Shown here: in pieces, positions 7,488-41,532 of the stretch
Layout of the letters: each line of letters starts with the position of its first letter
Numbering within the stretch: the first letter of the stretch is position 1
IMG/VR virus record: IMGVR_UViG_3300042465_003749
Coordinates: 1-41,532 of that record
Source: a virus
Length of the DNA: 41,532 nt
Reading direction: 5' to 3' (one strand)
The notes under the pieces: model-generated
Databases searched by the model: none
What the model was told of the DNA's origin: nothing
What the model saw: the letters and a program-made list of their open reading frames with translations, nothing else
Position numbers and translations under genes: made by a program

Positions 7488-8045
7488 TTATCCCATCATT
7501 CCGCCAGCCATACCTTGCATGGCTTTAGCTAGTTTGCCATAACCTGGCATTTGCTGATACTCATTACCAGTTGCCAAAATTGTGTTGTATCCAGTTTGTG
7601 GCACAAATGGATTGAAATCTCGTTGTGCTTGTGGGTTTACAAATGAAGTTTCAGCACCATTGTATTTTCCATCAAGAACATCAAAACCAATATTGGCAGG
7701 AGGTGTTGTTGGCATAGGTGGAGCCGCACTGTCATAAACAGGAGTAGCAATAGCAGGTGTTGGAGCATTAGCCATTGGAACATTAGCATTGGGCGCTACA
7801 GGTTGTGTCGCAACACCAACAGGAGGAACAGAACCAGTAGGTGCGGCAGGATTGTTATAAGAGAATGTACCTGCTTGATTAGGTTTAACACCAAGTTTAT
7901 CTAATGCCTGAATAGCACCTGATTGTTGCAAGCCATATAAAATTAAACCAGTTTTTGCCGCTTTGCCAATTTCAGCCAAAGGGCTTTGCCCCATGTACCT
8001 GCGTGGATCTCCAAAACTTAAACCAAAAGGTGCATCTGCTGCCAT
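7488..8045 (-). CDS. Pro/Ala-rich hypothetical virion protein
   Basis: 185 residues. The N-terminal 55 residues include a hydrophobic helix (KTGLILYGLQQSGAIQAL). The middle (60-120) is low-complexity Pro/Ala/Val. The end is Gly/Met-rich (MQGMAGGMMG). Start ATG follows AAGGAAATATC. It belongs to the block of low-complexity genes at 4.3-9.1 kb and is probably a minor particle component. Function unknown. Confidence 0.5.
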   Translation of the reverse strand: MAADAPFGLSFGDPRRYMGQSPLAEIGKAAKTGLILYGLQQSGAIQALDKLGVKPNQAGTFSYNNPAAPTGSVPPVGVATQPVAPNANVPMANAPTPAIATPVYDSAAPPMPTTPPANIGFDVLDGKYNGAETSFVNPQAQRDFNPFVPQTGYNTILATGNEYQQMPGYGKLAKAMQGMAGGMMG

Positions 8046-30665: not shown

Positions 30666-31178
30666 TTACACCTTTCTTAGAGATTCCATAAACTCATTTA
30701 ACGCATCTTCTGCGTCACCTTCATCTTCCCTAGTGACATTTTGAATATGTTCTACGGAAATGATTGGGGCACGGCTAGATTCAAACGGGGCCAGTTTATC
30801 AGCAATCTTGGCTTTGTCTTTAATGTCTAGCTCATCTGACTGCATGGCATCAATCAAGACTTCCATAGCAGTTTTAAGGGGTGGCAGTCCACGGGAAGTA
30901 CGCTCATCGTTCAGTTTATTAAACAAAGCTCCGTACTCGGTAACCTTGTTAACTATGGATTTTGGCCGACCAGCCTTTACTTGAGATCTAGGGACAAAAG
31001 CGGTCATGTCAAACTCATCCACTACAGGGACAGTCTCAATGGCTTTAGGTTCAATCTGACCTGTAGCTAGTTTCATGGCTTTACTTTGGGCACGTCTGGC
31101 TTTGGCGTATTCACGGGCTTTCTTCTTAATTTCTTCAGAAGTAACTGTAGAGCCTTCGGGTCTTATTTCGTCAAACAT
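30666..31178 (-). CDS. Putative terminase small subunit
   Basis: 170 residues. Basic, Ala/Lys-rich N-terminus, a GRPKSIVNKV segment, then PPLKTAMEVLIDAMQSDELD followed by KAKIADKLAPFESSRAPIIS, a pattern typical of small terminase-like phage proteins, and an acidic C-terminus. It would recognise phage DNA and recruit the large subunit. It lies near the head of the packaging operon, overlapping the GNAT gene by 16 bases. The assignment rests on these motifs and position. Confidence 0.55.
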   Translation of the reverse strand: MFDEIRPEGSTVTSEEIKKKAREYAKARRAQSKAMKLATGQIEPKAIETVPVVDEFDMTAFVPRSQVKAGRPKSIVNKVTEYGALFNKLNDERTSRGLPPLKTAMEVLIDAMQSDELDIKDKAKIADKLAPFESSRAPIISVEHIQNVTREDEGDAEDALNEFMESLRKV

Positions 31179-31702
31179 TCAATACCTTTTTCAGTTCTTA
31201 ACCAAGCATATGAGCCGTGTACAGTAAACCCACGTTTCTTGTGGATCTTCATAAACCCATCATGCTCTGCACGAATAGAAGTGGAACATACCACTGGTAT
31301 ATCCCATCGGTTTGCCCACAGTATGTGTTGGTCAATCATCTCATTAATTAACCTGACACGCAAGCGAGGGCTTAAAGAAAGGTCAACATGATGAAATTTG
31401 GCATTGCTAATCTCTTCATTGGCATAGGTGGTATATCCACCCCTATCAAACCAACAGTACGCAAGTAACGTATCTTCTGCAGCGTCACCAATAAAGGTTC
31501 TAACTAGCTTGTCCCCACGGCAGACAGCAATGAACTCTTTACTCTTGTCAAACACTTGGACAGTTGTAGCGACAGTAACGTGCTTGCGGAACACCGCTTT
31601 GTCCCTAGTTAATATGCCATCAGCCTCGGCCCCAAAGACTGAGTCAGCCATGTCCACAATATCGTCCACATCATGCAGTGGGTGTGCCAATGTCCATTCC
31701 AT
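31163..31702 (-). CDS. GNAT acetyltransferase-like protein
   Basis: 179 residues from ATG 31702, chosen because ATAGGAATAGC lies just upstream, as in the genes at 13725 and 29967. An upstream TTG (31819) has no ribosome site and overlaps a TATAAT box. The fold pattern EFIAVCRGDKLVRTFIGDAA, then VDLSLSPRLRVRLINEMIDQ and FMKIHKKRGFTVHGSYAWL resembles GNAT proteins, which transfer acetyl groups from acetyl-CoA. Such proteins often open phage packaging operons. Substrate unknown. Confidence 0.6.
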   Translation of the reverse strand: MEWTLAHPLHDVDDIVDMADSVFGAEADGILTRDKAVFRKHVTVATTVQVFDKSKEFIAVCRGDKLVRTFIGDAAEDTLLAYCWFDRGGYTTYANEEISNAKFHHVDLSLSPRLRVRLINEMIDQHILWANRWDIPVVCSTSIRAEHDGFMKIHKKRGFTVHGSYAWLRTEKGIECLTK

Positions 31703-31818
31703 GCTATTCCTATAGTAATTGTTGGGACTCAATTTGGTCTTTGGCAAAGCAAGATGGAAAGCCAGAAAAAATCTTGCATCGACATCCTTGAATGCTGGCT
31801 TAACGTCCCAACGAAACA

Positions 31819-31847
31819 ATTATAGCTACCCAAAAAGTTTTGAGTAA
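31819..31847 (-). promoter_or_regulatory. Candidate promoter for the leftward late operon
   Basis: On the minus strand a perfect -10 box TATAAT (31824-31819) is preceded after 17 bases by TTACTC (31847-31842), a weak -35. Transcription would begin near 31812, about 110 bases before the GNAT ATG. Sigma-70-type recognition by host polymerase is assumed. Confidence 0.5.
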
Positions 31848-31890
31848 AAATTTTTATATAGGATTCTTATACAGAGTTATCCACAGGCTA
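31843..31890. other. AT-rich tract with perfect DnaA box
   Basis: An A/T run (about 31845-31872) adjoins TTATCCACA at 31877-31885, an exact match to the bacterial DnaA box. A weaker 7/9 match (TCGTCCACA) occurs near 32117-32125. A DnaA box beside an easily melted tract could be a replication origin or a DnaA-controlled promoter. A single perfect box can also occur by chance. Confidence 0.4.
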
Positions 31891-31892
31891 TC

Positions 31893-31920
31893 CTCTTTAC
31901 ATAGGGGTAAACCCTACTAG
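31893..31920 (-). promoter_or_regulatory. Operator-like inverted repeat A, upstream of the late operon
   Basis: Read on the minus strand: TAGG-GTTTACC-CCTA followed by TGTAAAG, where TATGTA could serve as a -10. It is one of four or five copies in the genome, each just ahead of a transcription unit and in the same orientation as the genes it precedes. See also 32634-32690, 36085-36107 and 38452-38474. Confidence 0.6.
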
Positions 31921-31924
31921 AATG

Positions 31925-32329
31925 ATTACGGGGCCATCATCCAGCCCTTGGGAAGGCAGGTAGCTTACCAACCCAGATAAACGTACTGAATCCATCAGTC
32001 TCTCTAGTAAGCAATGAACGGGAACATACAGGTGGAGCCCATCAGGGTTAAGTTAGATAAACAAGGTGCTACTGCTTATAAGTATTTTTCTTACAGGCAC
32101 AAACAGTGGATGCCATAGTTCGTCCACAGTTAACCATCACACAATACTTGTATTACATAAGCTACAAAGATATAGACTGTTGTTTGTACGCAACAGTAAA
32201 AGTTTTAGAGAAATTTTGGGGATGGGTGAGTGGGCCCCCCCTTTTTACGGGGCTTCCAGTGCTACCCCCTCCACTCTCTCCCAGCCGAAAAGGTGCAGGG
32301 CATACAGTGGCAGGGTAGGCGGTGTGCTA
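31925..32329. other. Non-coding stretch with several small hairpins
   Basis: No convincing gene. Local inverted repeats: TGGG/CCCA (31949-31952/31972-31975) enclosing GGTA-GCT-TACC (31959-31969); ACTGA/TCAGT (31985-31999); CTACCC/GGGTAG (32262-32267/32313-32318); and GCCCC/GGGGC near 32233-32253. The series could be a structured untranslated RNA, but it matches no class I know. Confidence 0.35.
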
Positions 32330-32380
32330 GATGCGAATCATTCTCAATTAGGGGCGATGGTAATGAGAATCATTCTCATT
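32330..32380. promoter_or_regulatory. Tandem Fur-box-like operators
   Basis: Box 2 (32362-32380) is AATGAGAATCATTCTCATT, a perfect 9-1-9 palindrome matching the classical proteobacterial Fur box. Box 1 (32330-32348) matches it at 16 of 19 positions. Their centres are 32 bp apart, about three DNA turns. Fur binds such boxes with ferrous iron and represses. They lie in the divergent region between the late operon and the plus-strand gene group. No ideal promoter overlaps them; the nearest candidate for the plus genes is ~300 bases downstream. Confidence 0.65.
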
Positions 32381-32633
32381 TAGACCTGTCACAAAGCGCA
32401 GAGAAAAGGGCAGCAAGGGGCAGCGATCACTTTCCCCATTTCAAAATGACACAGTGAGAGCGCAGACACAGCGCAAAGCCCTGCAAATACTGGGTGTCTG
32501 GTGTGCTGCAGGGTTATGCAAAAAGCGCATAAAGTTGCAGATTGTGGGTGTGTGCCTGTTGCGCTGCTGTGTGATCTGTGCCTAATCTGTGCAAAGCCCT
32601 GCATTCAAATAGTGTGCAGACACTAACATAGTA

Positions 32634-32690
32634 TTAGGGTTAACCCTTAAGGGTTTTAAGTTGGTAAACCTAGGGTTTTCACCTATGTTA
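32634..32690 (+). promoter_or_regulatory. Promoter with operator-like repeats E and D ahead of the plus-strand gene group
   Basis: Repeat E (32634-32654) alternates AGGGT-TA-ACCCT-TA-AGGGT. Repeat D reads TAGG-GTTTTCA-CCTA (32671-32685). A promoter can be drawn with -35 TTGGTA (32661-32666), 17-base spacer containing most of D, and -10 TATGTT (32684-32689). An operator in the spacer is well placed for repression. The gene start follows 74 bases later. Between 32381 and 32633 only a 6-bp hairpin (32610-32625) is seen. Confidence 0.55.
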
Positions 32691-32763
32691 TTTGCTGTTT
32701 TGTAGCGTTATATTTATTGCAAGCCTGTAGTTTCAGGTGCAACATTAGACCGAAAGTAACACC

Positions 32764-33102
32764 ATGCAAAACGTAAACCCTTTAATCGCTGCAGCTCTCG
32801 CACCATTCGCACCTGCTGCCACAGATCCCACAATGCAAGCCCTTGTGGATCAATATGGATCATTAGATTCGCACATCAAAGCCCTGCAAAGTGATCTGGA
32901 GATGCTCAAAGCTGCCATTAAAGCGCAGGGCGCAGGTAAGCACGAGGGCTTGTCTTATCGTGCCACTGTATACGAAAGCGCAGGGCGCACAGTTACAGAC
33001 TGGAAAGCTGTTGCAGAGCATTTTAATCCCTCTTATCAATTGATCACAGCGCACACAGCAACAGGCGCTGCCACACTGACAATCAAGCCAACTAAAATTT
33101 AA
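32764..33102 (+). CDS. Hypothetical phage protein with coiled coil
   Basis: 112 residues. Ala/Pro-rich N-terminus, a coiled coil at ~30-55 (SLDSHIKALQSDLEMLKAAI), then a C-terminal beta part with TVTDWKAVAEHF and THTATGAATLTI-like strands. No named family; small proteins of this layout accompany other early phage genes. It is the first gene of the plus-strand group and uses the unusual leader TTAGACCGAAAGTAAC rather than a canonical Shine-Dalgarno. Local word usage differs from the rest of the genome. Confidence 0.65.
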   Translation: MQNVNPLIAAALAPFAPAATDPTMQALVDQYGSLDSHIKALQSDLEMLKAAIKAQGAGKHEGLSYRATVYESAGRTVTDWKAVAEHFNPSYQLITAHTATGAATLTIKPTKI

Positions 33103-33112
33103 GGGGCGCACC

Positions 33113-33211
33113 ATGGATAAAAACACAATTTTAGACATTCTCGCTGCTGTCGCTGTTGGCCTTATGCTTTGCGCAGGGGCTTTGCATTATTTTGACGTTT
33201 TAGTTAAGTAA
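33113..33211 (+). CDS. 32-residue single-span membrane peptide
   Basis: Begins MDKNTILDILAAVAVGLMLC and ends in a short polar tail (HYFDVLVK). One hydrophobic segment covers most of its length. It starts 10 bases after the preceding stop, with AAGGGGC just upstream as a ribosome site. Its place between the coiled-coil and GP88-like genes suggests co-expression. Function unknown. Confidence 0.5.
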   Translation: MDKNTILDILAAVAVGLMLCAGALHYFDVLVK

Positions 33212-33222
33212 AACATACCCTG

Positions 33223-33264
33223 CAGACACTAGATATCTGGTGTCTGTGTGGTGCGCTTTGCACC
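33223..33264 (+). promoter_or_regulatory. Palindrome and hairpin ahead of the GP88-like gene
   Basis: Bases 33223-33246 form a 12+12 palindrome, CAGACACTAGAT then ATCTGGTGTCTG, with a single T-G wobble. It is followed by GGTGC-GCTTT-GCACC (33250-33264). They could be an operator plus an RNA hairpin controlling the next gene, whose ATG is 26 bases further on. The word TGCAGACACTA at its start is also found before the first gene of the group (32615-32625). Confidence 0.45.
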
Positions 33265-33289
33265 CAAAACTTAGACCGAAAGTAACATT

Positions 33290-33955
33290 ATGCGAATTAT
33301 CCCAATTATCCCAATGAGCAAAACACAAGCTGCAATAGCCTGTGGATCACTGACAAGCACAAGCAAAATGCCCTGTAAATCTTACAGTCTGCCCACAGAG
33401 GCTTGCAAAACGGGTTTCAAAATGGCACAGATCGAGGGATCTATATGCTCTATGTGCTACGCAGACAAGGGTTTTTATAAAATGTATGCGAACAACATTA
33501 AACCCGCACAATTTGCCAGGCTTGATAGCATAGACAGCGAATATTGGGTGTCTGGCATGGTGTCCCATATTGGGACAGATCCCTATTTTCGCTGGCATGA
33601 CAGCGGAGATCTGCAAAGCCTGGCACACCTAGAGAAAATTGTCGCTGTGTGCGCTGCCACACCACAGACAAAACACTGGCTGCCAACTAGAGAATTTTCC
33701 ATTGTGAAAGAATTTGCTGCAAAGCATGGAAAAAACGGATTGCCTAAAAATTTAACTGTGCGCTTGTCTGCCATGTACCCTGATAAACCTGTAACTGTGC
33801 CTGTATCGCTGCAGAATGTGCAAAGTGTCACTGTGTCTAATGTGCATACATCAAAGCCCATGGGCAATGTGTGCAAAGCCCCAGCGCAGAGCGGAGAATG
33901 CAGAGAATGCAGAATGTGTTGGTCTAGTGCTGTGGTGTCATATGCGCTGCATTGA
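33290..33955 (+). CDS. GP88-family cysteine-rich protein
   Basis: 221 residues with 10 Cys. Key motifs: C53-x2-C56-Y (ICSMCYADKG), FRWHDSGDLQS (100-110), a WLPTRE stretch, and a C-terminal cluster C195-x8-C204-x2-C207-x2-C210 (GECRECRMCW). These match my memory of the phage gene-product-88 family, whose biochemical role is not established. The CxxC pairs suggest an Fe-S cluster or zinc. Leader TTAGACCGAAAGTAAC is shared with the gene at 32764. It ends just before a strong terminator, within a compositional island downstream of Fur-box-like sites. Confidence 0.7.
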   Translation: MRIIPIIPMSKTQAAIACGSLTSTSKMPCKSYSLPTEACKTGFKMAQIEGSICSMCYADKGFYKMYANNIKPAQFARLDSIDSEYWVSGMVSHIGTDPYFRWHDSGDLQSLAHLEKIVAVCAATPQTKHWLPTREFSIVKEFAAKHGKNGLPKNLTVRLSAMYPDKPVTVPVSLQNVQSVTVSNVHTSKPMGNVCKAPAQSGECRECRMCWSSAVVSYALH

Positions 33956-33972
33956 TTAAATAAACCGATTAA

Positions 33973-33996
33973 AGCCCGTTTTTACGGGTTTTTTTT
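33973..33996 (+). terminator. Strong intrinsic terminator after the GP88-like gene
   Basis: AGCCCGT (33973-33979), a 4-T loop, ACGGGTT (33984-33990), followed by a run of T to 33996. It is a textbook Rho-independent terminator, ending the plus-strand group. Confidence 0.85.
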
Positions 33997-34000
33997 GGTC

Positions 34001-34260
34001 TGCAGGTGCTGGGTTATCCCTGTGCCTGTTTTGCGCTTTGCTGGGTGTCTGGCAGGGTTTAGATGTGCCTGTCTGTGTGGCAGGTGCTGGGTGTCACTGT
34101 GTGCGCTTGTCTGTGTGCCTGTGGTGTCTGCGCTGTGTCTGTGGTGCGCCCTGCTGCGCTGTCTGTGTGCTGTGTGGCAGGTTTTGCCCTGTGTGCTGCG
34201 CTGGGTGTCTGCGCTGTGGTCTGCGCTTATGTGCTGTGCCTGTAGTGCTGGGGTGTGTTT
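34001..34260. other. A-depleted, G/T-rich non-coding tract
   Basis: Only 8 A occur in the 240 bases 34021-34260 on the plus strand; the sequence is built of recurring words such as GGGTGTCTG, TGTGTCTG and GCGCTG. Because stop codons need A, open frames arise in all plus frames, but they have no ribosome sites and no domain-like sequence. Nothing else is recognised here. Confidence 0.6.
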
Positions 34261-34333
34261 TGTCAATAAAAACAAGGGTTTACAGTGTTTTTTTAATGAA
34301 AAAGATTATATGAGATTCTATTTACCCATTAAC

Positions 34334-34403
34334 TTTTTGATTATCTCGATTATGTGGCTGCCACTTTTTGATTATATCGATAATATTATGTCGATTATCT
34401 CGG
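34334..34403. repeat. AT-rich iteron-like direct repeats
   Basis: The unit TTTTTGATTATCTCGATTAT (34334-34353) recurs as TTTTTGATTATATCGATAAT (34365-34384), 31 bases apart, and a further partial unit TCGATTATCTCGG follows at 34391-34403. The spacing of about three turns and the partly palindromic core (TATCGATA) suggest protein-binding iterons, an origin or an operator. Confidence 0.5.
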
Positions 34404-34420
34404 TGCTTTTAAATTTCAAA

Positions 34421-34456
34421 AAGACCCCCCCTCAAAAAGTTTTGGGTTCTCTTTTT
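34421..34456. terminator. Bidirectional terminator between the GT-rich tract and the Dps-like gene
   Basis: A stem CCC-T-CAAAA with TTTTGGG encloses an AG loop. On the plus strand it is followed by TTCTCTTTTTT. On the minus strand the same stem is followed by GGGGTCTTTTTG. It probably ends the leftward early operon and any rightward read-through. Confidence 0.5.
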
Positions 34457-34469
34457 TAATCAGGTCTAA

Positions 34470-34829
34470 TTATGGAAATCTTAGCAGGTAAAGGGTCGAG
34501 TCAATCAATGCTTGAATTTCATCGGCAATGTTCTGTATTTCAGAATCTTGTGGCAAAACCTTGCGTTTCTCTTCAAAGTATTCTGACAGATCACTTAACT
34601 CACGTTTACCTGTCTTCTCAGGTGGGTAATAGTCCACAGGGAATTCAATTGTTGAATCGTAACGGCCTTGAATGGCCTCAACAAGCTCGTCTACTTTGCC
34701 TGGCAGCTCTTCATAGAATTTGCCAAGGGCTTGATGTTCTGCATAAGACTTTGATTGCCAGTGCAAAATGTGGGTGTTTGTCGCTGAGTGCAACAAGGTC
34801 AAAACCAGATCACCAATTTCATTGTCCAT
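34470..34829 (-). CDS. Small helical protein with Dps/ferritin-like ligand pattern (DUF5856-like)
   Basis: 119 residues. H20-x2-H23-W24 then H32, D47 and E51 lie in two helices (NTHILHWQSKSYAEH; GKVDELVEAIQGR). In E. coli Dps the ferroxidase ligands are H51, H63, D67, D78 and E82. Allowing a 3-residue deletion after the first His, H23, H32, D47 and E51 fall on H51, H63, D78 and E82, while D67 corresponds to a Gly. This suggests a shortened Dps-like domain. I associate similar phage proteins with DUF5856. It is the last gene of the leftward early operon. Confidence 0.55.
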   Translation of the reverse strand: MDNEIGDLVLTLLHSATNTHILHWQSKSYAEHQALGKFYEELPGKVDELVEAIQGRYDSTIEFPVDYYPPEKTGKRELSDLSEYFEEKRKVLPQDSEIQNIADEIQALIDSTLYLLRFP

Positions 34830-35205
34830 GTGGGACTCCCAAGTGGGTTAAAACACGCCTTGCTGCTTCTCTGCGCCAAGGTCGCAGGGTTATATTATCT
34901 GCCAAATCCATCCATGCGTGAAGCTGTCTTTTGTAAGCCTCTTGGAATGCTAGATTTTTGGTGTCATAGTCAACGGAGGATGAATCTAACCATGTGTGGC
35001 AATGGTAGCAGCCCCACACTGAATGATGGTCATCGGCCTTGATTGAGCGGCCTTTGCCATGAATTAATAGGTTTGAATGACACGCTACAGTTGTAGACCC
35101 ATCCCCCCCCAAACAATTTTTGGCCACCTGTAAAAGACAAGGCTCACCTTCTGCAAGTTCTAGCAGCTTTTTGTCCCTGAAATATTCATGCTTTTGGTAA
35201 CTCAT
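34819..35205 (-). CDS. YbcO-like nuclease (DUF1364)
   Basis: 128 residues. Metal-binding pattern C23 (EPCLLQ), C31, H43 (VACHSNLLIHG), then C66-x2-C69-H70 (WGCYHCHTWLD) with D74. It matches the lambdoid YbcO/DUF1364 family of HNH-type DNA nucleases. It shares the operon with RusA and the DUF1376 replication gene, as in lambdoid early regions. The start overlaps the previous stop (TAATG). Confidence 0.8.
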   Translation of the reverse strand: MSYQKHEYFRDKKLLELAEGEPCLLQVAKNCLGGDGSTTVACHSNLLIHGKGRSIKADDHHSVWGCYHCHTWLDSSSVDYDTKNLAFQEAYKRQLHAWMDLADNITLRPWRREAARRVLTHLGVPHGQ

Positions 35206-35522
35206 TAAAGCTTCATTTCCACACGTTTTGTGTACTCTTCAGTTTTCCACACTTCCACCCGTAGCTTGGCAGCTTCAAGCTTCCATCTGAGTTCTTCTTC
35301 TTGAGAAATGGCCTCTTTGATCTCAAACAGTAGGGCTACATAGTCTGCATGGGCATAGGCATACATTTCTTTTGCCCCCAATGTGCCTTCCTCGTTGGAC
35401 ATGAGAATGGCCTTTTTTGATTTGCGATACTCTTCTAATTGCACCCTAGTAGCCTTTGCTGCGGCATATTTAGGTGCGTTTGTCAGAATGAAATTGATTG
35501 CTAAGTGTGCGGGATTTTCCAT
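35205..35522 (-). CDS. Conserved hypothetical helical phage protein
   Basis: 105 residues, long charged helices. The C-terminal EEELRWKLEAAKLRVEVWKT with EYTKRVEMKL resembles a frequent phage protein found in recombination or replication operons. It has overlapping start and stop codons with both neighbours (TAATG). Function unknown. Confidence 0.6.
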   Translation of the reverse strand: MENPAHLAINFILTNAPKYAAAKATRVQLEEYRKSKKAILMSNEEGTLGAKEMYAYAHADYVALLFEIKEAISQEEELRWKLEAAKLRVEVWKTEEYTKRVEMKL

Positions 35523-35791
35523 TACATTGCCTCGTTGATTAACTTTTCTATGCCTTTGTCGATGCTGCCATCGCCCATTTCAGTTAAAACTTTCTTTTGT
35601 ACGGAGTTAAGTTCTATTTTGACAATGGTGTTGTAGGGCAGGTATCTGGGTCTGCCAGCGCCTTTACGTTTGCCACCCCAATCCAATACAGGTCTGCCCA
35701 ATTTCTTGGACAGTTCTTCTTTGCGTCTACGCTCCATAATTTCCCACGCCTCGGCCAAAGCTTCAGGTGGGATATTGCTTATCAAGCTCAT
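35522..35791 (-). CDS. Small protein with AT-hook-like motif
   Basis: 89 residues. GGKRKGAGRPRYL (39-51) looks like an AT-hook, often seen in short phage DNA-binding proteins. The N-terminal helix and a C-terminal helical part (VQKKVLTEMGDGSIDKGIEK) follow. The start overlaps the preceding stop (ATGA). Likely binds DNA; possibly a regulator. Confidence 0.6.
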   Translation of the reverse strand: MSLISNIPPEALAEAWEIMERRRKEELSKKLGRPVLDWGGKRKGAGRPRYLPYNTIVKIELNSVQKKVLTEMGDGSIDKGIEKLINEAM

Positions 35792-36027
35792 GGCTCGTAG
35801 TTCTGCATAGCAATAATTTTGTTTTCGTTGATGGCTTTACAACCTTCAACTTCTAACTCTGCAAATTGCTCTGTAGTGATAAACCCAATAACCTCTACAC
35901 CTTCAAATTTAACTGAGTCAATATTCTCGTTATAAGTTCCATCGATGTCTTCCTCATAAGACATGATGACCTGAACGATCTCACTGCCTGGGCCTGTTGT
36001 GGCTTGAAAATTGATTGTGTTTGACAT
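35788..36027 (-). CDS. Small acidic hypothetical protein
   Basis: 79 residues, acidic, beta-strand-rich (GSEIVQVIMSYEEDIDGTYN; VKFEGVEVIGFITTEQFAEL). No family recognised. It carries the leader TAAGGAGAAAGTA before ATG that is shared with four plus-strand early genes, and an operator-like repeat lies 60 bases upstream, so it heads its own sub-operon. Confidence 0.6.
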   Translation of the reverse strand: MSNTINFQATTGPGSEIVQVIMSYEEDIDGTYNENIDSVKFEGVEVIGFITTEQFAELEVEGCKAINENKIIAMQNYEP

Positions 36028-36084
36028 TACTTTCTCCTTAAAAATGTGTTGATGTGGTTACTGTATCTTGAAATCTTGATTATT

Positions 36085-36107
36085 TATATAGGTGTTTACC
36101 CTTAGTC
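36085..36107 (-). promoter_or_regulatory. Operator-like inverted repeat C with -10-like sequence
   Basis: Minus strand reads AAGG-GTAAACA-CCTA followed by TATAAATA, so a -10 (TATATA or TATAAA) overlaps its right end. It lies just downstream of rusA and upstream of the gene at 36027. The remaining 36028-36084 contains only the AAGGAGAAAGTA leader. Confidence 0.55.
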
Positions 36108-36530
36108 TAAATCTTCTCTGACCATGACCTCAACCATGCCAACAGTGCCATAAACCTTAGTAGCGTGTAGCGATACCACCAAGCTATCGTCCACAAACAC
36201 AATGCCATTCATGCCATCAAATATTGCTTTGCAATAATTATCAATGTCACTTTTCTTGGTTGGACGTTCCTGACCCGATAAACAAGCCTGTGTGCGTTTT
36301 TTACTGTATGAAGCTGGAACAGGCAGGGTTATGTAGATATAAGCTCCTACAGGCGTTTCTAGGGGCTCTGAAGCACCCATGGCCAGCTTTGCCGACTCAG
36401 AAACCTTAGACTCGTAATCAACTGTAGCTTTTGGGCTGTAAGTTGACACAAATTTGCCTCGTCTGGCAAACCTTGGTCTGCCTTTTGGTACTGGTGTGCC
36501 TTCCACCATAAATGTGACCATAAAAGTCAT
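36102..36530 (-). CDS. rusA: RusA-type Holliday junction resolvase
   Basis: 142 residues. N-terminal GTPVPKGRPRFARRGKF and the catalytic segment KKSDIDNYCKAIFDGMN with D95, D97 and K101, then VFVDDS (D114/D115), match the RusA ligand and lysine spacing (E. coli D70, D72, K76, D91). It cuts four-way junctions formed in recombination or replication so that DNA can be packaged. The start overlaps the previous stop (ATGA). Confidence 0.9.
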   Translation of the reverse strand: MTFMVTFMVEGTPVPKGRPRFARRGKFVSTYSPKATVDYESKVSESAKLAMGASEPLETPVGAYIYITLPVPASYSKKRTQACLSGQERPTKKSDIDNYCKAIFDGMNGIVFVDDSLVVSLHATKVYGTVGMVEVMVREDLD

Positions 36531-36739
36531 GTCAGTGTCCCATCTTTAATTCTGTTCATGTAATCTCGGATTCTGTCTCTTGCACCGCCGCCATAAATGC
36601 GCTCTGCCCGTTCAAGTCTGGCACGAATTAGGTCCCTATTCTTACCCCACTCCCAATTGCGATAAAGTTCTCTAGCTTCTGCTTGCTCTAGGATAACCCT
36701 GTCGCTTGGACCTTGAATATTACGTCTGCTGTAAGTCAC
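36527..36739 (-). CDS. Small basic hypothetical protein
   Basis: 70 residues from a GTG start, Arg-rich and helical (ARELYRNWEWGKNRDLIRAR; GGGARDRIRDYMNRI). It overlaps the preceding small gene by 20 bases and the next by ATGA. Possibly nucleic-acid binding. No family recognised. Confidence 0.55.
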   Translation of the reverse strand: MTYSRRNIQGPSDRVILEQAEARELYRNWEWGKNRDLIRARLERAERIYGGGARDRIRDYMNRIKDGTLT

Positions 36740-36833
36740 CAGTAAGCTCCAAAGCCATGCGGATTATTTTGTCAGGGTAAGGCACACCATCTTTGACCTT
36801 ATCCAAAATTCTCATTGCTTCTGCGTGTGTCAA
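36720..36833 (-). CDS. 37-residue hypothetical protein
   Basis: Translated from TTG at 36833 (TTGA overlaps the DUF1376 stop): THAEAMRILDKVKDGVPYPD, then KIIRMALELTGDL. The amphipathic pattern 'AE..RILD.V..G.P.PD..I..AL..TGD' is one I recognise from short phage genes placed after replication genes. An internal ATG at 36815 is the alternative start. Role unknown. Confidence 0.5.
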   Translation of the reverse strand: MTHAEAMRILDKVKDGVPYPDKIIRMALELTGDLQQT

Positions 36834-37579
36834 GCTTTTTTCCTTATTTCTTGCATTGCTTGTCTTATGTGGTCGGGCATAGGTGCAGCCTTTAATGCAT
36901 CAGTTTTAATCTTTTCCAATGCAGGGTCTGGCTCATTTTTTGATGGGACTGTAAGTCTCACAATGTCAGCAGGGTTTTGCTTTGGTGCATTAGTGCTTCT
37001 AACCCAATTGCGCCAAGTAGCGAACCAATCCAACTTCACACCCTTTTGACCTGCTTGGGCTATCCAATAATCCTTGAACTGGTCAAAGGTTTTAACAGGA
37101 CTTAGCTCTGGTCTTGTCTCTTGACAGAACTGCTCCCATTCTTTTGGAAAACTAAAATCAGAAGCGAGGCGTTTGCCGAGTGTCTTCTTCTCTTGGTTAT
37201 TGGTTATTGGTTTATGGTTATTGGTTGCTATTGGGGTAGCATTAGGGGGGCTAATAGCCTCCCCATTGGGGGGTGTTCCCCACCTCTTAGCCGCCCCACG
37301 TTTACCTGCTTCAGCAAACTCTTTATATTGCTTGATTTCCTTGTCTGCACGAGGAGAAACAAAGCCATCTTCCGTTGAAATGAAGAACTCATTAAGGACA
37401 GTCATGACATCTTCTTCATGCTCACGCATACCGATCTGACGAGCAATATCTCGGTGTTTTATGGGTTGTTCATGCAAAAAGTAAAAATCTAGCAAACGTC
37501 TGTAAGCTAAATCTTCCATCAAAGAAAGATGATGGGTGTGACTTTTGTAGTCACCTATGTGAAATTGATAGTAGTGCAT
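36830..37579 (-). CDS. DUF1376-type replication protein
   Basis: 249 residues. N-terminal ~90 residues (MHYYQFHIGDYKSHTHHLSL, then RRLLDFYFLHEQPI) are typical of DUF1376 (YdaU-like). This is followed by a Lys/Arg patch (AGKRGAAKRW), a low-complexity Asn/Thr linker (118-130) and a C-terminal part with KGVKLDWFATWRNWVR. These proteins occupy the replication-initiator/primosome position in lambdoid phages. The linker DNA contains iteron-like repeats, as lambda's origin does inside gene O. Confidence 0.75.
   Translation of the reverse strand: MHYYQFHIGDYKSHTHHLSLMEDLAYRRLLDFYFLHEQPIKHRDIARQIGMREHEEDVMTVLNEFFISTEDGFVSPRADKEIKQYKEFAEAGKRGAAKRWGTPPNGEAISPPNATPIATNNHKPITNNQEKKTLGKRLASDFSFPKEWEQFCQETRPELSPVKTFDQFKDYWIAQAGQKGVKLDWFATWRNWVRSTNAPKQNPADIVRLTVPSKNEPDPALEKIKTDALKAAPMPDHIRQAMQEIRKKA
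37194..37233. repeat. Iteron-like repeats inside the DUF1376 gene
   Basis: The plus strand reads a series of TTGGTTAT / TGGTTATTGG / GGTTTATGGTTATTGG, equal to about four AACCAATA units on the coding strand. They encode the Asn/Thr-rich linker. Position within a replication gene makes this a candidate replication origin. Confidence 0.5.
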
Positions 37580-37641
37580 AAAATCCGCTTTTTAAACACC
37601 CTTTAAAGAAACTGCGGCAGGAGAAGGGATAACTCTTTTCA

Positions 37642-37661
37642 ATGGGGAGATCAAGCCCCAT
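37642..37661. other. Hairpin in the gap 37580-37687
   Basis: ATGGGG (37642-37647), an 8-base loop and CCCCAT (37656-37661) make a perfect 6-bp stem. The gap of 108 bases between the zinc-ribbon-like gene and the DUF1376 gene holds no open gene. The hairpin could be an attenuator for the replication gene. Confidence 0.4.
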
Positions 37662-37687
37662 CTAGCCGTGTTTCAAAACAATATAAC

Positions 37688-37885
37688 CTATTTTTGACTA
37701 CGCTTCAAGTTTCTTGTTTGGCTTGTTGAATGCCCAATATGAAAGAATCCGCAATGAGGGCATTTGTAGATCTGGAAAGAATGATCTCTTTTCCTATTAA
37801 TTGTAGATTCAGCTATCGTAAAAGTCGGAAAAGGATGCTTTCCTGCACACTGTACGGCAGCATCAAACTTGTCGGTTGTTTTCAC
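37688..37885 (-). CDS. Small zinc-ribbon-like protein
   Basis: 65 residues from GTG 37885, with Cys13 and CPHC (YKCPHCGFFHIGH), a half zinc-ribbon with following His residues. Basic end (TRNLKRSQK). Start overlaps the winged-helix gene by 23 bases. May bind nucleic acid; no family assigned. Confidence 0.55.
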   Translation of the reverse strand: MKTTDKFDAAVQCAGKHPFPTFTIAESTINRKRDHSFQIYKCPHCGFFHIGHSTSQTRNLKRSQK

Positions 37886-38243
37886 TAGAAACCGCCTTTG
37901 AGTAAGTGGTAAAACTTGGATTCGACTTGTAAAAATTTCGTGCTTGAGCGTTCATTATTCTGTATTCAGCAGGGCTAAATATACCCTTTGCGTTCCTGAT
38001 ATCAAAAGGATTCAATTTGTCTACAGGCTCACTTTGTTTTTTCTCAGTAATCGGGTTGGTTAAAGTGTATTCTGCCACCCAATAACGACCAGGCTTGACC
38101 TGTCTTGTTGTCAGCTCACCTTTGTAACGTAATTTCTTGGCGGTTGACAGAACTGTTTCCTTGGTCATCCCCGTTAAATTGGCCACCTCAACTGAGGTTA
38201 AAGGACCATTTTGCAGGGCATTGATTACTAAGGCTTGGCTCAT
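37863..38243 (-). CDS. Winged-helix DNA-binding protein
   Basis: 126 residues. N-terminal wHTH (residues ~1-60): MSQALVINALQNGPLTSVEV, then LTGMTKETVLSTAKKLRYKG followed by a beta wing GELTTRQVKPGRYWVAEY. The C-terminal half is polar. It lies in the first leftward early operon next to the divergent promoter region, so it is a candidate regulator of the operator-like repeats. Start overlaps the previous stop (ATGA). Confidence 0.65.
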   Translation of the reverse strand: MSQALVINALQNGPLTSVEVANLTGMTKETVLSTAKKLRYKGELTTRQVKPGRYWVAEYTLTNPITEKKQSEPVDKLNPFDIRNAKGIFSPAEYRIMNAQARNFYKSNPSFTTYSKAVSSENNRQV

Positions 38244-38419
38244 TTATACATTCCTGAAATGTTGATGGGTTTGTTTGTGTGAAGCTCTAAGGCTCTGGCC
38301 ATTAAACCAACAATGGCGGCATCTCTGTCGTCAGGGTGGTTGTTGTAAGTTATAACCAAGTTATAAGCGTATGCCAATAGAGCTTGGGCGCAATCGTGTT
38401 CGGTTTGTTCGATGTTCAT
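38240..38419 (-). CDS. 59-residue hypothetical early protein
   Basis: Begins MNIEQTEHDCAQALLAYAYN and continues with helices (RDAAIVGLMARALELHTNKP). Its stop overlaps the next ATG (ATGA). It is the first gene of the leftward early operon. No Shine-Dalgarno is evident: a possible -10 (TATGAT, 38432-38427) lies so close that the transcript may start at or next to the ATG. Confidence 0.6.
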   Translation of the reverse strand: MNIEQTEHDCAQALLAYAYNLVITYNNHPDDRDAAIVGLMARALELHTNKPINISGMYK

Positions 38420-38520
38420 GCAAAAATCATAGTGTTGTTTTTTTGTCTGTCTATTAGGGTTTATCCTAATACAAATAATTTAAAAAGCATGGCATATTAG
38501 AGGCTCTTAAGGAGAAAGTA
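38420..38520. promoter_or_regulatory. Divergent early control region with operator-like repeat B
   Basis: Repeat B is TTAGG-GTTTAT-CCTAA (about 38454-38469). Rightward: TTGTCT, an 18-base spacer containing B, then TAATAC as -10, followed by the leader AAGGAGAAAGTA before ATG 38521. Leftward: TAGACA, a 16-base spacer, then TATGAT (38432-38427). One regulator at B could control both early operons. Confidence 0.55.
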
Positions 38521-38721
38521 ATGGCAACACTAAACGGCAGAAAGGTTATTGACATTGAAGTAGATGGTGTCGATATTAGGGATTATCCCGATTTCAGCGA
38601 TGCGTATTTTTGTTACGCTTGCTATGAGGATGGCACACCACTGACTGATGACGAGCTTGACAAGCTTACAGAAGACAATGGCGACCTCGTGTACGAAAAA
38701 GCGTACGATTCACTTCACTAA
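38521..38721 (+). CDS. Acidic 66-residue early protein
   Basis: 18 Asp/Glu against 5 Lys/Arg; sequence features YFCYACYEDG and a C-terminal acidic stretch (DDELDKLTEDNGD). No family recognised. First gene of the rightward early operon with leader TTAAGGAGAAAGTA. Early, acidic and small: a host-takeover protein is possible. Confidence 0.65.
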   Translation: MATLNGRKVIDIEVDGVDIRDYPDFSDAYFCYACYEDGTPLTDDELDKLTEDNGDLVYEKAYDSLH

Positions 38722-38917: not shown

Positions 38918-39088
38918 ATGAACATCACAAAACTCAAATATGTCCGTCAATTGTTTGTAACGTATGACGCACCCCCCCAAACAATTCGCAGCTACCAACG
39001 TCAATGGATTCGCTCTGTTCGATATCTTGGCGACAACTGGTTGTTGGCTAAGAAAGTAGAAAAATTTGAAACTCCAAAATCTAATTGA
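38918..39088 (+). CDS. 56-residue basic early protein
   Basis: Begins MNITKLKYVRQLFVTYDAPP, followed by QTIRSYQRQWIRSVRYLGDN and a Lys-rich end. Ten or more basic residues suggest nucleic-acid binding. Leader TTAAGGAGAAAGTA before ATG. No family recognised. Confidence 0.6.
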   Translation: MNITKLKYVRQLFVTYDAPPQTIRSYQRQWIRSVRYLGDNWLLAKKVEKFETPKSN

Positions 39089-40233: not shown

Positions 40234-40524
40234 ATGTTTAATTTATTTAAGTTGTTCCGCAAAGATGCAAAAGACACCTCAGTTGAGGCCGCTCAAAGCA
40301 TCATGCTCGCCCTGCCAAATATTGAGGCAGCAGTCTATGAATATGCTGCCCTGCGAGGCACAAGAGGATTCACAGACGATGAAATGAATGATCATTTCGA
40401 AACCCATAAATCCACCTACAGAGCTAGACGTTCTACTTTGGTAGACAAAGGGTTAATCGAGGACTCAGGAACCCGTATAAAGGGCCCCAATGGCCGTAAC
40501 ATGACTGTATGGAGGATAGTATGA
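40234..40524 (+). CDS. Small winged-helix DNA-binding protein
   Basis: 96 residues. N-terminal basic tract (LFRKDAKD), then a helix bundle with a wHTH: GFTDDEMNDHFETHKSTYRA, RRSTLVDKGLIEDSGTRIK and a wing GPNGRNMTVWRIV. A candidate transcriptional regulator or replication-accessory protein. Leader TTTAGGAGAAAGTA before ATG, preceded by a strong hairpin. Confidence 0.65.
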   Translation: MFNLFKLFRKDAKDTSVEAAQSIMLALPNIEAAVYEYAALRGTRGFTDDEMNDHFETHKSTYRARRSTLVDKGLIEDSGTRIKGPNGRNMTVWRIV

Positions 40525-41045: not shown

Positions 41046-41085
41046 TTAACCTAGTATTTCATTGCAACGATTGGTTGCGTTAACG
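41046..41085. promoter_or_regulatory. Nested inverted repeat before the acidic gene (right copy)
   Basis: Same GTTAAC / GCAAC-GATTG-GTTGC / GTTAAC arrangement as at 87-126, identical in sequence apart from what follows it. Confidence 0.4.
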
Positions 41086-41095
41086 AGGAAAAATT

Positions 41096-41290
41096 ATGTA
41101 CGAACTGACAATTGAATTAGATTGGGCTTCCGATGAAACCCTTACCATCCACTCACACGATTTCGAGAAACTACAGATCATTTCTGAGTTTATTACGTTC
41201 CAGCAAGAGCATGGCTGGGCGGTTAACTATGAAGCAGTTGACAACTCTGCAAATGATACTGAAGAAGAAGAAGTTGTAGAAGAAGAATAA
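41096..41290 (+). CDS. Very acidic 64-residue protein (right copy)
   Basis: Same protein as at 138-332 with Asn at residue 53 in place of Asp, and a GAGGAAAAATT ribosome site stronger than that of the left copy. It ends the rightward early operon. The same comments on possible DNA mimicry apply; no family recognised. Confidence 0.8.
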   Translation: MYELTIELDWASDETLTIHSHDFEKLQIISEFITFQQEHGWAVNYEAVDNSANDTEEEEVVEEE

Positions 41291-41291
41291 G

Positions 41292-41371
41292 TGTTGGCTA
41301 CTTTGCCAACAGGTAAAGGCCCACGTTGCTAAACGCATAACCCGCATAGACAATGGCCATGTGCGGGTTAT
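41292..41371. terminator. Two hairpins after the acidic gene (right copy)
   Basis: TGTTGGC-TACTTT-GCCAACA (41292-41311) and ATAACCCGCA with TGCGGGTTAT (41337-41346 and 41362-41371), as in the left copy. They separate the converging early and late operons. Confidence 0.6.
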
Positions 41372-41440
41372 CTTTCCATAGCTGCTCTCCCGCTATGTAA
41401 GCATAGATCCCCCCCGTCAAAATTATGAGCCAGGCACTCA

Positions 41441-41532
41441 TTAAAACTCACCTACATCAATTACTTGGCCTCTGAAATCGATCAAGCCCTCATCAAATTT
41501 ACTCGCCAACTGAGGCCATAACATCTTGCCAT
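41441..41532 (-). CDS. Metallophosphoesterase, C-terminal fragment cut by the window edge
   Basis: Minus-strand frame with stop TAA at 41443-41441; its C-terminus reads EGLIDFRGQVIDVGEF, against EGLIDFRGEIIDVSKL in the left copy. It is the same gene from a second allele and continues beyond the window. Confidence 0.85.
   Translation of the reverse strand, partial: GKMLWPQLASKFDEGLIDFRGQVIDVGEF

Follow-up and report, generated by a model that had tools for sequence, protein, structure and literature searches.

The phage genome studied here carries the same short inverted repeat ahead of several of its transcription units, which raises the question whether the repeat is the binding site of one shared regulator, and how such a site would act on the promoters beside it. 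The whole stretch of DNA analysed (the window) comes from IMG/VR, where it is a phage record of 41.5 kb. Its two ends are near-identical but not exact repeats (106-483 versus 41064-41441, an offset of 40958; 138-332 resembles 41096-41290). Ends of this kind suggest a genome that is either circularly permuted or redundant and whose assembly drew on a mixed population; the window probably holds almost all of a circularly permuted genome. The terminase is 84% identical to that of the named relative 'Podoviridae sp. ctfne034' (MW202484), in which a matrix scan found no motif site outside genes. About 80 relatives were obtained via the terminase, a comparison set of 46 phage records was put together piecewise from IMG/VR, and 34 near-complete genomes were used for site counts and gene profiling.

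A matrix with two spacings was built from the relatives and the window and used to scan the 41.5 kb. Five sites scored 23.5-25.7 bits and everything else at most 15.5 bits. The five lie at four promoter regions, exactly the places where a reading of the sequence alone had seen the repeat, and none of them is inside a gene. The training sites included these five, so their independent support comes from conservation. The sites, and the operon downstream of site A, were as follows.

31902 to 31916, minus strand: site A, TAGGGTTTACCCCTA, 25.7 bits, upstream of the leftward late/packaging operon.
31819 downward, leftward: late/packaging operon (31163-31819, 30666-31178, terminase, portal and so on).
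32635 to 32648, scoring best on the minus strand: site B1, AAGGGTTAACCCTA, 24.5 bits, accessory upstream copy 36 bp from B2.
32671 to 32685, plus strand: site B2, TAGGGTTTTCACCTA, 24.8 bits, promoter region of the g32764/GP88 unit.
36089 to 36103, minus strand: site C, AAGGGTAAACACCTA, 23.5 bits, internal promoter region ahead of 35788-36027.
38455 to 38468, plus strand: site D, TAGGGTTTATCCTA, 24.5 bits, promoter region of the rightward early operon (38521 onward).

The RusA stop codon ends in the first two bases of site C, and site D is also 36 bp upstream of the first codon of a divergent leftward gene (38240-38419). As a loose pattern, TAGG-N6/7-CCTA matched five times versus 0.71 expected, with two matches in structural genes (16179 and 20170); the tight pattern TAGGGT-N2..6-CCTA matched three times, all at the earlier-named places, and the reversed control gave 0. 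The distance from site to first gene had been put at 45-75 bases and was corrected to 53 for D, 62 for C and 79 for B; for A it is 83 or about 200, depending on which start codon is taken. That the repeat stands ahead of all four units is right in so far as four units have a site; there are five units, however, and the leftward early operon (from 38419) lacks a site in its own orientation, site C being internal to it. The next-best matrix match (15.5 bits, 38577-38591) is inside gene 38521-38721, 122 bp past site D.

Sites recurred upstream of the orthologues of 31163, 32764, 35788 and 38521, and dozens of relatives have them at corresponding gene boundaries. The position of site A is kept in eight of the compared records and the B1+B2 pair in five, B2 being the most widely kept site among relatives. 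Contigs retrieved through RusA alone, about 50 of them, retain site C at the RusA stop codon or directly behind it, apart from a few exceptions; site D is in the same place in about ten relatives, with 53-55 bp to the start codon in nearly all. In the 34 near-complete genomes, 91 sites of 17 bits or more were counted, versus 2 expected from second-order simulated sequence. An equal frequency inside genes would have spoken against an operator, and it was not observed: 82 of the 91 sites are non-coding, while non-coding DNA is 15% of the sequence. Our results showed that the palindrome is real, conserved and linked to promoters. They supported the original description of a repeated element at promoters, oriented with its units and kept in relatives, of which a shared regulator is the natural reading. 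Because the sites are kept at orthologous places though the neighbouring genes differ, we counted conservation in support of one shared binding site, and the palindrome is very probably bound by one shared gene-control protein.

The palindrome also recurs in hundreds of environmental phage contigs, many of them unrelated. The exact motif was present in 60 IMG/VR stretches in one search and in at least 120 in another, made with the exact 18-mer TTAGGGTTTGTCCTAATA; in the latter, all but a few of the examined sites were outside ORFs of at least 100 aa. A literature search did not find a description of the motif; papers on DtxR and RA3 KorC surfaced, and no match was established. Tandem arrays of CCTAGGGTTTCTACCTAAGGGTTTCTACCTA were seen in five stretches.

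When the non-redundant sites were aligned, a second conserved block appeared downstream of the palindrome. The -10 score peaked 23 nt past the motif end, at +38 for 15-bp sites and +37 for 14-bp sites (z 16.3), and among 193 non-redundant sites a -10 of at least 3 bits was at that place in 19.7%, versus 2.2% in shuffles. Both spacing forms keep the 23 nt when it is measured from the right edge, so the right half sets the register. A held-out set of 31 non-redundant sites, chosen by the exact 18-mer alone, showed the same direction more weakly (32% versus 8%), with a modest peak at +37/38 (z 3.0; another offset reached 3.3). The following promoter elements are predicted in the window.

32709 to 32714, plus strand: predicted -10 of unit B, TATATT, +38 from the B2 start, 5.1 bits, the best in the 60 nt downstream.
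32686 to 32691, plus strand: -35 slot of unit B, TGTTAT.
36060 to 36065, minus strand: predicted -10 of unit C, TACAGT at +38, 4.4 bits, the best in the region; -35 slot TATAAA.
38493 to 38498, plus strand: predicted -10 of unit D, CATATT, 2.0 bits, with TG one base upstream (TGGCATATT, the extended -10 form).

At the unit-B -10 distance, GTTATATT is kept in six compared stretches. The unit-C place reads TACAGT, TATATT or TACATT in relatives, and the unit-D place keeps CACATT or CATATT. Site A has no -10 at +38 (AACTCT, -0.3 bits), and TATAAG is at +45 instead. Over the 57 sites whose -10 is good, the match to the -35 averaged 2.07 of 6. In two unrelated phages with quite different genes, G371 and G372, some copies read CCCCTATTGACA-N17-TAAAAT, which is the same register with a consensus -35 (TTGACA). 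Promoters with the -35 offset by 0, 11 or 22 nt relative to the end of the motif were over-represented (5, 5 and 3 versus 0.55 expected per offset), which hints at helical phasing; these counts are small, and offsets 9 and 16 were also raised.

With the -10 placed 23 nt downstream, the palindrome is centred near -43, upstream of the -35 slot. In class II activation, as by lambda CI at OR2, CRP and LuxR-type proteins, a dyad near -42 stands beside a weak -35. Counted from the predicted start sites, a site centre at about -41 to -43 with a fixed -10 distance was found at B, C and D but not at A, and the -35 was poor on average, with the exceptions in G371 and G372. The likeness to the lambda CI, CRP and LuxR-type sites is in the position of the dyad beside a weak -35; the sequence differs, and no homologue of these proteins was found in the window.

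We favor the reading that the palindrome is the site of one dimeric protein coordinating the phage units, which at B, C and D acts in the manner of a class II activator, with a probability of roughly 0.55. One dimeric DNA-binding protein would bind the palindrome at the several units. At B, C and D, where the palindrome is directly upstream of the -35 position, it would most likely be a class II activator site, a geometry predicted from the sequence; the bound protein would substitute for the poor -35 and recruit the host sigma70 RNA polymerase to the -10. Site A may drive or tune the late leader with a different spacing. It is from the sites, their conservation, their non-coding placement, the -10 distance and the weak -35s that we infer a dimeric protein, activation as the direction of control, and the timing.

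The MotA box of phage T4 is non-palindromic and centred near -30, whereas the present element, a palindrome of 14-15 bp, precedes the -35 slot. The likeness to the T4 middle promoters is that a phage-wide DNA box substitutes for the -35 where the -10 is good, in T4 by MotA/AsiA sigma appropriation (PMC6755090, PMC2988021). No MotA or AsiA was found among the genes examined.

The identity of the binder is a separate question. It is quite possible, at a little less than even odds, that a host regulator is used independently by several phage lineages in a CtrA-like way. Host CtrA sites of Alphaproteobacteria phages put one transcription-factor motif in the promoter regions of unrelated phages (PMC9437464). 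The present case is alike in that one motif is concentrated at promoters of unrelated phages; it differs in the motif itself, and in that no chromosomal regulon was found across about 750 different proteobacterial genomes, taken from the order and the phylum to which the only linked MAG belongs. A host binder is favored by the presence of the motif in unrelated phages sharing no informative protein family (16 motif contigs of many lineages had none common to all), by Fur-box-like host sites nearby, and by the 2-Mb genome G100, the one exception among the chromosomes, which has four intergenic chromosomal copies, near metabolic genes for transport and acetate/aldehyde. In contrast, neither 399 genomes from the order of G047 nor 398 from the phylum of G047 showed enrichment of the motif: the counts were 12 in the order, where the reversed control gave about 19, and 3 in the phylum, against about 22. 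The host link is one 3-kb Nitrosomonadales MAG contig, recovered by a search with the family of the protein encoded at 38918, so the true host may not be sampled; a prophage and host search by TerL gave none. A host-encoded binder is compatible with an activator or a repressor, and the likelihoods given for binder identity are not to be summed with those for the direction of control. A chromosomal TAGGG-CCCTA in three other genomes was rejected as a regulon site; it is inside a serine-tRNA-like gene.

More broadly, we tentatively suggest that the palindrome may mark a widespread, undescribed phage promoter class, in which TAGGG-CCCTA beside a missing -35 is bound by one regulator in unrelated freshwater phages, most simply a host protein reporting host state. 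With the motif, promoters can be read as a code across a large set of uncultured freshwater phages, and an 18-bp probe would be a handle for pulling out the regulator. If host-encoded, the regulator would join CtrA as a single host factor to which unrelated phages have wired their genes.

The same protein might instead be a repressor, sitting beside or over the -35 and keeping the units off until needed or shutting them down later; we consider this doubtful. Palindromes at several promoters are typical of repressors, and tandem copies occur, as in B1/B2 and in three of the arrays (L169, L175 and L177). Some G371 and G372 copies flank a consensus -35 and would need no activator, so that repression is possible there. 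However, the -35s at the present promoters are poor, and repression would act on already weak promoters. No lysogeny genes were seen in the window, and, unlike at lambdoid CI/Cro operators, where the phage has an XRE-type regulator, such proteins (HTH_3, HTH_26) are absent from the window and nearly all relatives. P1 C1 operators and L5 stoperators, which serve temperate immunity, are asymmetric and occur in many dispersed copies per phage genome. The dispersal over the genome is shared with the present sites, but these are nearly symmetric and promoter-linked, and no repressor was found.

Still less probable is the promoter register first proposed, with the operator in the spacer between -35 and -10 and the -10 in the right half or flank of the palindrome. 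The hexamers named there (TATGTA, TATGTT, TATATA and TAATAC) belong to or abut the conserved flank of the motif and occupy the -35 position, and the likely -10 downstream puts the palindrome outside that spacer. A passable -35 does lie about 17 bp before the adjacent hexamer (TTGGTA at B, TTTAGA at C, TTGTCT in relatives of D), and a -10-like score appears one base past the motif (z 10). But this score falls on the conserved flank of the motif itself, CCTAATA/CCTAT, and -35-like sequence is weakly enriched at the upstream place it needs (z 3.6 at -10 versus 6.8 at +15).

Two small proteins of the phage were considered as binders.

38918 to 39088, plus strand: small basic 56-aa protein in the D operon, of the family best correlated with motif number.
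35522 to 35791, minus strand: 89-aa protein with GGKRKGAGRP, second gene of the C unit, with a C-terminal strand-helix-helix layout.

That the 38918-39088 protein binds the palindrome and autoregulates its own D operon is unlikely: its family ranked first when families were profiled without bias (genomes with it averaged 4.2 sites and those lacking it 1.2; p 3e-6, uncorrected for phylogeny) and the motif is upstream of the family's operon in about one third of 55 distant loci, where none was expected, but the family is missing from the matching operon of the motif-rich G363 (3 sites) and G365 (8 sites) and so is not required, it is in just 5 of 29 unbiased motif records, and the protein gave a low-confidence model with no family or fold match. 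This family counts over 560 relatives in viruses, and in the loci examined it mostly sits directly ahead of recombination genes. The 35522-35791 protein is a weak candidate, rejected because it is universal (34 of the 34 near-complete genomes, motif-free ones included) and its putative DNA-facing residues vary regardless of the motif. Its model has an extended stretch followed by two confident helices and was compared with ribbon-helix-helix proteins; no Pfam, PDB sequence or fold match was found for it. The two winged-helix proteins that had been proposed as binders both failed gene profiling against the motif. The one at 37863-38243 has relatives in only 6 of the 34 genomes, and its presence does not track the motif; the one at 40234-40524 is missing from three motif-bearing genomes and present in a motif-free one.

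Several other features lie near the sites. Between A and B, at 32332-32378, are two Fur-box-like palindromes (TGCGAATCATTCTCA and TGAGAATCATTCTCA) 32 bp apart; the pair is kept in two relatives, with single copies in two others, and boxes resembling the Fur box are also near the motif arrays in L169, L175 and L177. In one relative, a parS-like GTTTCACGTGGAAC is upstream of the 31163 orthologue. A DnaA box, TTATCCACA, at 31877-31885 is just downstream of site A and is kept in three relatives. ARAGORN found a tRNA-Met at 7673-7747 of the compared stretch L050. In the leader from site A to the late genes (about 31700-31820, minus strand), a long stem is possible (GTTGGGAC...GTCCCAAC), with CACGCATGGGGATT...AGTCCCCAGCCGTG instead in the same leader of relatives, and this late leader is possibly a tRNA-derived RNA.
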